The translations under genes were made by a program, and so were the position numbers. Of a stretch of DNA of 64,000 nucleotides, positions 44,519 to 59,350 are shown piece by piece (position 1 is the first letter of the stretch; every line of letters starts with the position of its first letter). The stretch spans positions 196,916 to 260,915 of the forward strand of contig NZ_JH994110.1 in the NCBI RefSeq assembly GCF_000316195.1. The letters are read 5' to 3'. The notes beneath the pieces were generated by a model that searched no databases, had not been told where the DNA came from, and saw nothing but the letters and a program-made list of their open reading frames with translations. The DNA comes from Brachyspira hampsonii 30446. Its GTDB lineage: Bacteria; Spirochaetota; Brachyspiria; Brachyspirales; Brachyspiraceae.

Positions 44519-44534
44519 TGTTTCACATGAAACA
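44519..44534. promoter_or_regulatory. parS-like centromere site 1
   Basis: TGTTTCACATGAAACA is the bacterial parS palindrome (consensus TGTTTCACGTGAAACA) with one central change. AAAA/TTTT flanks extend the palindrome. It is non-coding, upstream of the TonB-like gene. Confidence 0.75.
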
Positions 44535-44638
44535 TTTTATTTACTAAAAAATTAATTATTAATATGACGATATTAGCTTTCAGATATAATTTTATTAATT
44601 AAAGAAAATTATTAAGCCCGCCCGCCCACCCCAAACCA

Positions 44639-44725: not shown

Positions 44726-44741
44726 TGTTTCATGTGAAACA
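44726..44741. promoter_or_regulatory. parS-like centromere site 2
   Basis: TGTTTCATGTGAAACA is the exact reverse complement of site 1, 207 bp away. It begins 5 bp after the A module and lies about 95 bp upstream of rsmI. Confidence 0.75.
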
Positions 44742-46063: not shown

Positions 46064-47020
46064 CTATTTTTTAGAAAACTTATTTACTAATTCTACCCTA
46101 TTCTTTACTCCTGATTTCTCATATATATTAGCTACATGATTATTTACCGTATTAAGAGATATACTCAATATTAATGATACCTCTTTATTAGTTTTACCAT
46201 CGAGAAGATATGATAATATCTCTTTCTCTCTCTTAGTTAAATTTACATCTATTTTTTCTGTATTATTATAATTAACATCATCTTCTATAGCATTTTCACT
46301 ATTAATATTATTACTTGAGTTTGATATTTTATTATTGAGAATATTGATAAAATACCAAGATAAATAACCAAGCATAACTAAATTCCACCATATATAAAAT
46401 AATACCAATGTAATATCCATAGAACCTATATCAGCTGCTTCAATTCGGTAAATAATAAGCTGATATATAAGAACTGGATATATTATTATAGTTATAAGTC
46501 CAAGTATCTTTACTATTAATTTTACCGTCTTGTCTTTTATATTCTTATAGTTCACTGCACCTATTATAAATATTACGATTATAGAAATATAAAAAATAAT
46601 GCCGCTTATAATATAAATATCAAACTTTATCAATATTCCTAATATACTCAAAATAAAATGAATTATTGATATAGTTATATATATAATATTTTGTTTTAAA
46701 TTCCATTTTATATTTAAAAATCTATATAAAAATGCCGGTATAAAATAAAGCATAAGTGACATAGCTACAGAAAAACTAAAAAAGTATAATGTATTAAATA
46801 TATTATTAGACATGAAATAAGGAACTGTTAAAAAACTTAAAATTTTTACAGCCCTTATCATAAGAAGAAGAGAAAAAGTGAATAAAAATACTATATAATA
46901 TTTAAGCCATGCAACTCTTTCTATTATATAATAAATAATAGAAAAAAGTATTGAAGAAAAACCTATTATAAAAGAAAATAAATAGGCAATTAAGAGAATA
47001 TATCCTAATACATAATTCAT
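46064..47020 (-). CDS. Membrane-bound LuxR-type transcription regulator
   Basis: At 318 residues, about seven membrane helices fill residues 1-235, then a linker leads to a LuxR/GerE helix-turn-helix (residues 255-315): LTKREKEILSYLLDGKTNKE, then LSISLNTVNNHVANIYEKSG. Such one-component regulators pass a membrane or extracellular signal directly to DNA. The start overlaps the upstream gene by the 4-bp ATGA, so the pair is translationally coupled. The target genes are unknown. Confidence 0.85.
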   Translation of the reverse strand: MNYVLGYILLIAYLFSFIIGFSSILFSIIYYIIERVAWLKYYIVFLFTFSLLLMIRAVKILSFLTVPYFMSNNIFNTLYFFSFSVAMSLMLYFIPAFLYRFLNIKWNLKQNIIYITISIIHFILSILGILIKFDIYIISGIIFYISIIVIFIIGAVNYKNIKDKTVKLIVKILGLITIIIYPVLIYQLIIYRIEAADIGSMDITLVLFYIWWNLVMLGYLSWYFINILNNKISNSSNNINSENAIEDDVNYNNTEKIDVNLTKREKEILSYLLDGKTNKEVSLILSISLNTVNNHVANIYEKSGVKNRVELVNKFSKK

Positions 47021-47790
47021 AACTTATTCTTAGCCGGTAATATTATATTGATTCTCTGCTCATTTTTCACTGATTCAAACCATATATTACCATAATGTTC
47101 TTTTATTGTTCTATAGGCAGTATACAGATATAAATTATTAAAATTGAAATTATCATAAGATATTAAAGGCGTTTTAAAAAGCATTCTTTTTATATCATCA
47201 GGTATATCATCGCTTTTAAATGTTATAGATATATCTATGCATTCTTCATTCAAATCAAGCGTTTTCTCATCTTTTTTACTTATATTGTCAATTCCATTTA
47301 TTAATAAAAATTCTTTATCATCATCATAATCAATTAAATTATATGTTATATCCATCGATGTATTCACTTTTATTATATTGTAAATAAAGGTAAATACATT
47401 AAGAATACTTCTTTTTATCTTATCCCTATCCATTAAAACTATGCATTCTTTCAATATTTTATCATTTAATGTCATTTTAATTCTTTTAGATTTAAACAAA
47501 TCAAATATATCATCTAAAGCTTCATTTATAATAACAGATATATTTTCAAAATTCATATTGAGTTTAAAAGAATCAGAGTTTATATCATTAAAATCATTTA
47601 AAGCTTCCATAGTTCTATTTATTAGAAGAGATTGTCTTACTATTGTTGCTCTTGCTTCGCTGCAATAATTATTGGCACATCTTTCTATATCTATGTATTT
47701 GGATATTATATTATTATAATTTTGAACATCGTAAATTATATTTGAAATTAAATCTTTTAATTTATTGTTTATATAAAAATTTTGTTTCAT
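47017..47790 (-). CDS. Histidine-kinase-like protein lacking a typical ATP site
   Basis: At 257 residues, the first 85 are helical, like a dimerisation domain (QSLLINRTMEALNDFND). The rest resembles a HATPase_c fold: DRDKIKRSILNVFTFIY stands where the N-box would be, and TAYRTIKEHYGNIWFES leads to INIILPAK, as in kinase C-termini. The N-box Asn and the G1/G2 glycine motifs are not evident. It may be a non-catalytic relative that signals by binding to the LuxR-type protein encoded 4 bp downstream. This is an inference from pattern only. Confidence 0.55.
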   Translation of the reverse strand: MKQNFYINNKLKDLISNIIYDVQNYNNIISKYIDIERCANNYCSEARATIVRQSLLINRTMEALNDFNDINSDSFKLNMNFENISVIINEALDDIFDLFKSKRIKMTLNDKILKECIVLMDRDKIKRSILNVFTFIYNIIKVNTSMDITYNLIDYDDDKEFLLINGIDNISKKDEKTLDLNEECIDISITFKSDDIPDDIKRMLFKTPLISYDNFNFNNLYLYTAYRTIKEHYGNIWFESVKNEQRINIILPAKNKL

Positions 47791-47949
47791 AATACGCCTG
47801 AAATAAACATAATATTTTTACTTATTATAACATAAAATTATTAAAAATGCCAATTTTATAAAATAAATTCAAAATTTGAATTCATAATTTAAATTTATAT
47901 TATAAATTCTTTTATTAAATTTTATAGTAAAATTTATACAGTATTTTTA

Positions 47950-48320
47950 TTTTAAGTTATTAACATTATAAACAAGTTATTAACATTATTAAAATAATTG
48001 AATTCATTATATTTTTATTTTTTCAAATTCAAATTTTGAATATATGAAGATTTCTTTTATATAATAATATTATATATTTAAATTTTTAAATAAATTTTTT
48101 ATTATTATTAAGATGTTGATATGTTGATAATTTATTGCATATAAGAAGAAAATAGAAAAAATATATAAATATAATGTTGATAACTATGTTGATATTAACA
48201 AATATTAAAATATATAAAAACAATAAATTTTATAATGAAATTCAGAATTTTTATAAAATATAAATTTGTTTGCAATGTTAATATTTTTTTATTATTTATT
48301 AACATTTTATCAACAATATT
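47950..48320. other. Candidate chromosomal origin of replication (oriC)
   Basis: In an 850-bp non-coding gap, nine-mers matching DnaA boxes cluster: TTATTAACA at 47957, 47977 and 48296; TTATCAACA at 48307; its reverse complement TGTTGATAA at 48122 and 48175; TGTTGATAT at 48114 and 48187. Long stretches of pure A/T lie between, as expected of an unwinding element. The two parS-like sites lie 3.3 kb away. dnaA, dnaN and parAB are not in the window, so this remains a candidate. Confidence 0.5.
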
Positions 48321-48359
48321 GTTTTAATTGCCTATAGAATATGAATTAATTTATATAAT

Positions 48360-48570
48360 TTTATTTATTAGTTGTTGGTAATACTCAGTAGTTGTATTTG
48401 GTGCTGCAAACTTATTTTTTACTATGTATGCCTCGCTTGCTTAGAAAATCTATATCCTAGACAAGTTCAGATACGCTTAGAGAATGAATATTGGTATACT
48501 AAAATAATAATTTGTACAGCATATAAAATATTATATACAATCTTGTTAAGTAATTTTGAAAGAAGTACAT
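48360..48570 (-). repeat. MITE-like element, degenerate copy 3
   Basis: The segment TATACTAAAATAATAATTTG followed by TACAGCATATAAAATATTAT and the end CTTGTTAAGTAATTTTGAAA matches copy 1 (3450-3550) over about 120 bp. The GC-rich middle has diverged, and the left end is uncertain. It sits between the candidate oriC and the EamA gene. Confidence 0.5.
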
Positions 48571-48641
48571 TACAATTATTGATTTTTAGATCATTTTAAT
48601 ATAATATTTTCCGACAATCATGAACCAAAAAGCAAATAACT

Positions 48642-58252: not shown

Positions 58253-59350
58253 ATGTCAGAAGAAATAAAAAATAATGAATATGATTTAACTACAGAGGAA
58301 GGAAGAAAGGCATTAATACAGGATACAGCCGATGATATAAGAGATAATTCTTTGATAGGAGCTATAGAGTTTTCAGAAGGTTATGACAAAGTAGAAATAA
58401 ATACAGATCATAAAGAAGTAAAGGCTTTAAAAGAATATATAACTTCAGATATAGATGATGAGAAAGATGAAGATGTAAAAAAGATGGTAACTACAGCCGC
58501 ATATATAGCAGCTCAAAAAGGTTATTTAGGTGATAAAATGAAAGATAAAAATCCTGATGATGTTGCGCGTATAGTTGATAATTCTTTAACTACTACAAAG
58601 GTTGCATATAAAGTTGCTTCAGGAGAGGTGGACGCCGAAGAAGTAGTTGATTATGCAGTTGACAGAACCACAGCACAAGTAGGCGAGATAGTAAGCACAA
58701 AAATAGAAGAAGCAACAACAGTTACAGGAACAGTTATAGGAACAAAAGTAGGTGAAAAGGCTGGAAAAGCTGTTGGCGATGCAATAGGAAAACATATAGG
58801 CGGTGCAATAGGAGCTTCAATAGGAAGTGTTTTAGGACCTATAGGAGCTGCAGCTGGTGCGGTTGTGGGAGCAGTTGCAGGAAGTACTGTAGGAAAAGCT
58901 ATAGGCGGAGTTGTTAAGAAAGGAATTGAGATAGTAGGCGGGGCAGTAAAAGCAGTAGGACGAGCTATAGGCGGAGCAGTTAGAGCTGTAGGAAATTTTG
59001 TAAGCAGTGCTGTAGATTTTGTTACAGGAGGATGTTATATAACAACTGCAGTATGCCGTAAGGATAATAAAGAAGATGATTGTTATGAACTGACTATGTT
59101 TAGGGATTTTAGAGATAATTGGCTAATGCATCAAAAAGATGGAAATGCATTGATAGATAGATATTATAAAATAGCTCCTCAAATAGTAAAAAATATTGAT
59201 TTAGAAAATAATAGTAGTTTTATATATGATGAAATTAATAATAAATATTTGAAAAACTGTTTAAAAATGATAGAAAATAAAGAGTATGAAGAATGCAAAA
59301 AATTGTATATAGAAATGGTTGAGAGTTTAGAAAATAAATATTTAAATTAA
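58253..59350 (+). CDS. Glycine-zipper protein with CFI-box C-terminal domain
   Basis: At 365 residues: residues 1-130 are acidic and helical (DYAVDRTTAQVGEIVSTKIE lies just after). Residues 160-260 are a long glycine-zipper stretch (VGEKAGKAVGDAIGKHIGGA and ASIGSVLGPIGAAAGAVVGA) that should insert in or assemble on membranes. The C-terminal 100 residues start GGCYITTAVC and continue MFRDFRDNWLMHQ and YYKIAPQIVKNI, matching the CFI-box-CTERM pattern (CFIATAAYG-type start, FRD, YY..sP). GGGGG lies before the ATG. It is followed by two further genes in a tight operon. It resembles pore-forming or membrane-tethered effectors, but function is unknown. Confidence 0.75.
   Translation: MSEEIKNNEYDLTTEEGRKALIQDTADDIRDNSLIGAIEFSEGYDKVEINTDHKEVKALKEYITSDIDDEKDEDVKKMVTTAAYIAAQKGYLGDKMKDKNPDDVARIVDNSLTTTKVAYKVASGEVDAEEVVDYAVDRTTAQVGEIVSTKIEEATTVTGTVIGTKVGEKAGKAVGDAIGKHIGGAIGASIGSVLGPIGAAAGAVVGAVAGSTVGKAIGGVVKKGIEIVGGAVKAVGRAIGGAVRAVGNFVSSAVDFVTGGCYITTAVCRKDNKEDDCYELTMFRDFRDNWLMHQKDGNALIDRYYKIAPQIVKNIDLENNSSFIYDEINNKYLKNCLKMIENKEYEECKKLYIEMVESLENKYLN

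Follow-up and report, generated by a model that had tools for sequence, protein, structure and literature searches.

A conserved DnaA-box cluster apart from dnaA as the probable chromosomal replication origin of Brachyspira hampsonii

Introduction

In Escherichia coli, oriC lies apart from dnaA and its arrays of DnaA boxes face inward; in the general oriC layout, exemplified by E. coli R1, the ACA end of a box faces the unwinding element. The A/T-rich element of E. coli oriC contains TTATT (PMC8235120). The basal unwinding system of B. subtilis and other bacteria has tandem boxes, the distal one stronger (PMC8287927; PMC6669920), and DnaA-trios, whose strict consensus consists of 5′-[T/A]A[G/A]-3′ repeats after a GC cluster (PMC7561715) and whose distance from the box peaks at 10–13 bp (PMC8287927). 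The trio sequence of C. difficile is consistent with an orientation of the ACA end toward the unwinding element (PMC7561715).

For Brachyspira, the genome papers of 2009 and 2010 placed the origin at dnaA in B. hyodysenteriae and B. pilosicoli (PMC2650404; PMC2897892). This early claim was revised in 2011–2012, when GC skew and Ori-Finder located oriC away from dnaA, and unlinked to it, in B. intermedia, B. murdochii, B. hyodysenteriae and B. pilosicoli (PMC3163572; PMC3532143). The passages on these placements give no sequence, box layout, parS sites or unwinding element, and in the literature searched we found no paper on the box layout or the parS sites of Brachyspira. The separation of oriC from dnaA in this genus is already published and, because of this, the novelty of our results is modest.

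Here we analyze a window of 64,000 nt, the whole stretch of DNA examined (C3:196916–260915), from the 3.04-Mb genome of the gut spirochete B. hampsonii 30446, which is on four contigs. An intergenic gap at around 245 kb of contig C3 is, with a probability of roughly 94%, the chromosomal replication origin, having DnaA boxes, a putative unwinding element between them and nearby parS sites, with binding and opening predicted from the sequence. This result confirms, and does not overturn, the published view of Brachyspira oriC, with which the locus shares the genus, by sequence conservation, and the lack of linkage to dnaA. It narrows the origin in the genus to about 360 bp, where earlier placements were at dnaA and later ones were rough and based on skew, and gives origin plasmids and marker-frequency studies in Brachyspira a defined DNA segment, as well as offering a natural case of an origin apart from dnaA whose boxes and parS sites have drifted from the usual consensus.

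Results and Discussion

A cluster of DnaA boxes in an A/T-rich gap

The gap and the boxes, with their occurrence in an alignment of 22 genomes (own included; the congeners are not mutually independent), are as follows:

47791..48641, intergenic gap between a minus-strand gene (start codon at 47790) and a plus-strand gene from 48642
47957..47965, plus strand, DnaA box B1, TTATTAACA; TTATYAACA in 21/21 genomes with sequence
47966..47974, plus strand, DnaA box B2, TTATAAACA; weak in this genome, replaced by TTATCAACA in 9 congeners
47977..47985, plus strand, DnaA box B3, TTATTAACA; TTATYAACA in 21/21
48114..48122, minus strand, DnaA box B4, ATATCAACA; weak, WTATYMACA in 11/22
48122..48130, minus strand, DnaA box B5, TTATCAACA; TTATYAACA in 21/22, one-base overlap with B4
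48175..48183, minus strand, DnaA box B6, TTATCAACA; exact in 18/22, one mismatch in the other 4
48187..48195, minus strand, DnaA box B7, ATATCAACA; 9/22
48192..48200, plus strand, DnaA box B8, ATATTAACA; 8/22
48276..48284, minus strand, DnaA box B9, ATATTAACA; 11/22
48296..48304, plus strand, DnaA box B10, TTATTAACA; 19/22
48307..48315, plus strand, DnaA box B11, TTATCAACA; exact in 11/22, at most one mismatch in 20/22

A motif scan of both strands of the gap revealed, within 47957–48315, six exact TTATYAACA sites, starting at 47957(+), 47977(+), 48122(−), 48175(−), 48296(+) and 48307(+), and four ATATYAACA sites, starting at 48114(−), 48187(−), 48192(+) and 48276(−), plus TTATAAACA at 47966(+). 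An earlier note on this DNA had counted eight nine-mers; only six of the sites are exact, and that count arose from these six together with several one-mismatch sites. The remainder of its description held: there are sites on both strands, two boxes (47957 and 47977) are 20 bp apart, and the setting is about 360 bp of intergenic DNA of extreme composition, with 10.8% GC over 47950–48320. The value is 12.1% over 47791–48400, and no 400-bp windows in the 64 kb are richer in A/T than those of the gap region. Except for a spurious reverse ORF overlapping its end, the gap contains no ORF of at least 80 aa, and scanning the window for tRNAs and Rfam families gave no matches.

With 7–8 A/T per nine letters in each box and around 12% GC in the gap, the nine-mers could conceivably have piled up by chance. 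Nevertheless, 0/5000 dinucleotide shuffles of the gap reached the observed count, either for relaxed boxes (10 observed; shuffle mean 0.37, maximum 4) or for strict boxes (6 observed; mean 0.19, maximum 3), and the boxes are conserved over the 22 genomes. Shuffling and conservation refute chance accumulation, whose probability is negligible. Likewise, many A/T gaps with comparable clusters, which the earlier note had named as evidence against an origin, did not appear, since there were at most two relaxed boxes per 400 bp in the remaining window and at most four in 1.13 Mb of other stretches from the same genome, with two of those four inside a CDS.

Conservation of the locus in Brachyspira

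Beyond the boxes, the following parts of the gap stand out in the alignment:

about 47802–48327, conserved oriC core, with homology across 22 genomes that extends to about 48327
47866..47882, 17-bp palindrome AATTCAAAATTTGAATT, with the form AATTCAAAWTTTGAATT in 18/21 aligned genomes

Sequence resembling the gap occurs in most genomes of the genus. Each of the 22 aligned genomes has a single conserved locus, and sequence variation is not evenly spread along it: five boxes (B1, B3, B5, B6, and B10) are kept across the alignment, while much of the intervening sequence drifts. The right-hand flank beyond about 48327 is not conserved among congeners. One of the two later papers describes the genes at oriC as varying extensively among Brachyspira species; in our alignment such variation is confined to the right flank, and both the core and the left flank, with its kinase-like gene, are conserved. 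We did not find the homologous region in G005, a fragmented assembly, or in G024, a genome of the same genus that is 99% complete; in the latter the kinase-like gene that flanks the gap is also absent, the sole tandem TTATYMACA pair is at C8:1378543, and a parS site is at C8:2254053. A signature scan (box, gap, ATATAAGAAGA) of 84,980 genomes retrieved Brachyspira records, among them pilosicoli, alvinipulli and innocens, plus about 20 unrelated ones; because of the latter, this signature alone is not specific.

The palindrome, which has one exact AATTCAAAWTTTGAATT copy genome-wide and separates boxes B1–B3 from the flanking gene, might at a guess be a binding site. Separately, we observed a second tandem box group, TTATCAACATTGTTGACAAGTTATTAACA, off oriC in two B. 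pilosicoli-like genomes (G006:C1:843011–843039 and G041:C18:1825–1864), which may serve in DnaA titration or in regulation.

A putative unwinding element between inward-facing boxes

Three elements of the core bear on where the duplex would open:

47986..48113, putative DNA unwinding element, 9 G/C in 128 bp (7% GC), between the inward-facing box groups
48100..48111, plus strand, DnaA-trio-like TAT-TAT-TAT-TAA, 10 bp from the strong box B5, putative function
48139..48151, plus strand, ATATAAGAAGAAA, the most conserved element, identical in 21/22 genomes and with one substitution in the remaining one

Boxes B1–B3 face right and B4–B6 face left, both toward 47986–48113, an arrangement of inward-facing arrays also found in E. 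coli oriC. In a nearest-neighbor stability scan, no 50-bp stretch of the window was less stable than the one at 48058, inside the putative unwinding element; at 100 bp the element ranks third, and the window minima for 100 and 150 bp are elsewhere (15004). There is, then, an easily melted A/T-rich element beside the boxes, and like that of E. coli it contains TTATT (PMC8235120). Conversely, the boxes differ, being TTATYAACA in Brachyspira and TTATMCACA in E. coli, and Brachyspira has parS and ParB.

As in the basal unwinding system, the trio-like run lies on the expected strand at 10 bp from the stronger, distal box of a tandem pair (B5) and two bases from the weaker one (B4). The 10-bp distance is in agreement with the published peak of 10–13 bp (PMC8287927), and TTATTATTA, at 48102–48110, shows no variation in 22 sequences and ranks next to ATATAAGAAGAAA in constancy. 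The run fits a loose definition (at least three NAN, at most 16 bp from a box, correct strand), a pattern that is easily matched in A/T-rich DNA. Unlike in the basal unwinding system, TAT-TAT-TAT-TAA agrees with the strict consensus only at TAA, the single strict trio beside B4/B5, and neither a preceding GC cluster nor a GC-rich spacer is present. A strict series, AAG-AAG-AAA, does occur within ATATAAGAAGAAA, but at 23 bp from B6, beyond the 16-bp limit used for that system; it may represent a second loading strand or have some other role.

Genes flanking the gap on the left

Two genes transcribed away from the gap lie on its left:

47017..47790, minus strand, gene for a degenerate histidine-kinase-like protein, adjoining oriC, with weak kinase-like matches
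46064..47020, minus strand, gene for a membrane protein with a C-terminal LuxR-type HTH (PF00196), overlapping the previous gene by 4 bp

The product of the first gene lacks the usual catalytic motifs of histidine kinases, and its structure model is poor (pLDDT 56); among the matches listed for it, most are to histidine kinases or to domains that resemble them, and TM-scores are low. Its homologs are present in 24/26 genomes of the genus and, wherever both share a contig in congeners, lie directly beside the oriC core. It is possible that this gene pair (46064–47790) is an oriC-linked regulator.

The strand bias switches at the gap

Uncorrected GC skew of the sampled stretches proved too noisy, since skew tracks gene direction in the genus, a point also made in PMC3163572. 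We therefore used third-codon bias: in B. intermedia, leading-strand genes have more G and more T at the third position of their codons (PMC3163572, Table 2). That table was converted into a log-likelihood for each gene, and giving this value a sign according to the strand of the gene removes the effect of gene direction. In the window, the running sum is lowest at the gene that ends at 47790 and climbs beyond 48642, with 29/34 genes negative to the left of the gap and 9/13 positive to its right (Mann-Whitney p = 1e-4). The G/C component alone gives the same window minimum, and the T/A component alone has its minimum at 59350. A switch from left-negative to right-positive was found at the homologous region in 19/22 genomes, own included, or 19/20 informative ones, as two of the three others have no left-side genes on the contig and G021 disagrees, showing no local switch; among control midpoints of sampled stretches, 8/112 showed such a switch. 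In the single-contig genomes G006 (2,555,556 bp) and G016, the best sampled break interval holds the homologous region, at 1.886 and 1.597 Mb, respectively, while the coarse fit of G019 is ambiguous across about 0.4 Mb. Independent records point to the same place: the B. intermedia record (3,304,788 bp), rotated by its authors to an approximate skew origin, has the homologous region at 11.15–11.67 kb, and the complete congener record G008 starts at a base matching about 48133, inside the cluster.

Despite the gene-level minimum at the gap, the genome-wide cumulative curve of the own genome, built from sampled stretches covering about 37% of it, had its top-scoring break at about 445 kb of C3, 200 kb from the gap, which would favor an origin there. 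The sampled stretches at C3 ~300–440 kb are mostly wrong-signed, and when they were flipped the minimum fell again in the interval whose end is the gap. Furthermore, a segment of 3.1 kb in this region (C3:400.9–404.0 kb) has a 97% identical counterpart in G019 that lies to the same side of the origin but is reversed with respect to it, and the neighborhood of this counterpart carries the expected polarity. This comparison, of one segment, indicates that a recent inversion within one arm would account for the displaced fit. Since, additionally, the best box group near 445 kb consists of four relaxed boxes, two of them within a gene, and there is no parS, an origin at that position is extremely improbable.

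The region of dnaA

Gene dnaA maps at C4:1612593, on a different contig from the gap. A start site beside it, with another role for the cluster in the gap, would agree with the location of oriC at dnaA in many bacteria. It is also what the first genome papers stated for B. hyodysenteriae and B. pilosicoli (PMC2650404; PMC2897892), a claim that the later ones revised (PMC3163572; PMC3532143). However, the surroundings of dnaA contain at most one box per 400 bp and no cluster, and lie within a uniformly negative bias arm (−42 to −78 on both sides). In addition, the records of G006 and G016 start at dnaA (positions 366 and 495) and their bias switches far from it, at ~1.89 and ~1.60 Mb. We consider a dnaA-adjacent origin highly unlikely.

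The domain IV signature of DnaA (L001:964–2346) is FNRDHASV, one residue shorter than FGGRDHTTV, which the closest solved DnaA has and which is found in B. subtilis-type DnaA. As a lead only, this signature may accompany the loss of the second C that the usual TTATCCACA box contains.

parS sites and a model for initiation

The parS-like pair reported at around 3.3 kb from the cluster was confirmed as two sites:

44519..44534, plus strand, parS TGTTTCACATGAAACA, one mismatch to TGTTTCACGTGAAACA
44726..44741, plus strand, parS TGTTTCATGTGAAACA, the TGTTTCACATGAAACA sequence inverted, one mismatch to TGTTTCACGTGAAACA

These are the only two matches to TGTTTCAYRTGAAACA in 3.04 Mb, in opposite orientation and at 3.2–3.4 kb from the box cluster; in most congeners, one or two parS sites are retained, and their distance to the boxes is again about 3 kb. 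The ParB gene is at C4:1883267, with parA (C4 ~1.88 Mb), and this is the single chromosomal parAB pair of the genome. The locus thus resembles chromosomal parS/ParB (Spo0J) systems in having near-consensus 16-bp sites confined to the vicinity of oriC and one parAB pair, and differs in that parAB is on another contig, far from the sites. The center of the Brachyspira sites, usually an inverted pair, is the non-palindromic CACATG/CATGTG, whereas the matches listed for other spirochete genera all have CACGTG.

DnaA-box clusters outside oriC occur in other bacteria, and the operon of the 47017–47790 gene has this gap as its upstream region, so the cluster could be thought of as a titration or regulatory site (datA/DARS-like, or controlling the promoter of the flanking operon) rather than a start site. 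We regard this as very unlikely, given that the bias switches exactly at the gap in the own genome and in congeners, that the sole parS pair adjoins the cluster, and that the sampled 37% of the genome has no comparable cluster. Together, the bias switch, the conservation of the boxes, the unique parS pair, a dnaA gene located elsewhere and lacking boxes, and the published placement support the proposal of the earlier note of a chromosomal oriC apart from dnaA.

In an origin of this kind, DnaA would bind the TTATYAACA boxes, with B1–B3 on the left and B4–B6 on the right pointing inward at the 128-bp, 7%-GC unwinding element. From the strong B5 and the weak B4, DnaA would spread onto the adjoining, conserved trio-like single strand; opening of the duplex, presumably at this site, would be followed by helicase loading and bidirectional forks, and the two parS sites 3.2–3.4 kb away would load ParB for origin segregation. 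A broader scheme, in which the altered DnaA signature FNRDHASV, the TTATYAACA boxes, the invariant ATATAAGAAGAAA, flanked by two groups of boxes, as a single-strand loading element, and a kinase-like/LuxR operon locked to oriC form a co-adapted system coupling initiation to a signal, is speculative and rather doubtful.

Between the two parS sites, at 44617–44632, there is a C-rich run, CCCGCCCGCCCACCCC, which is a G-quadruplex motif on the opposite strand. Similar runs occur near parS in some congeners and elsewhere in the genome, with six motifs in 1.12 Mb of the own genome, for which reason CCCGCCCGCCCACCCC is probably a dispersed element.
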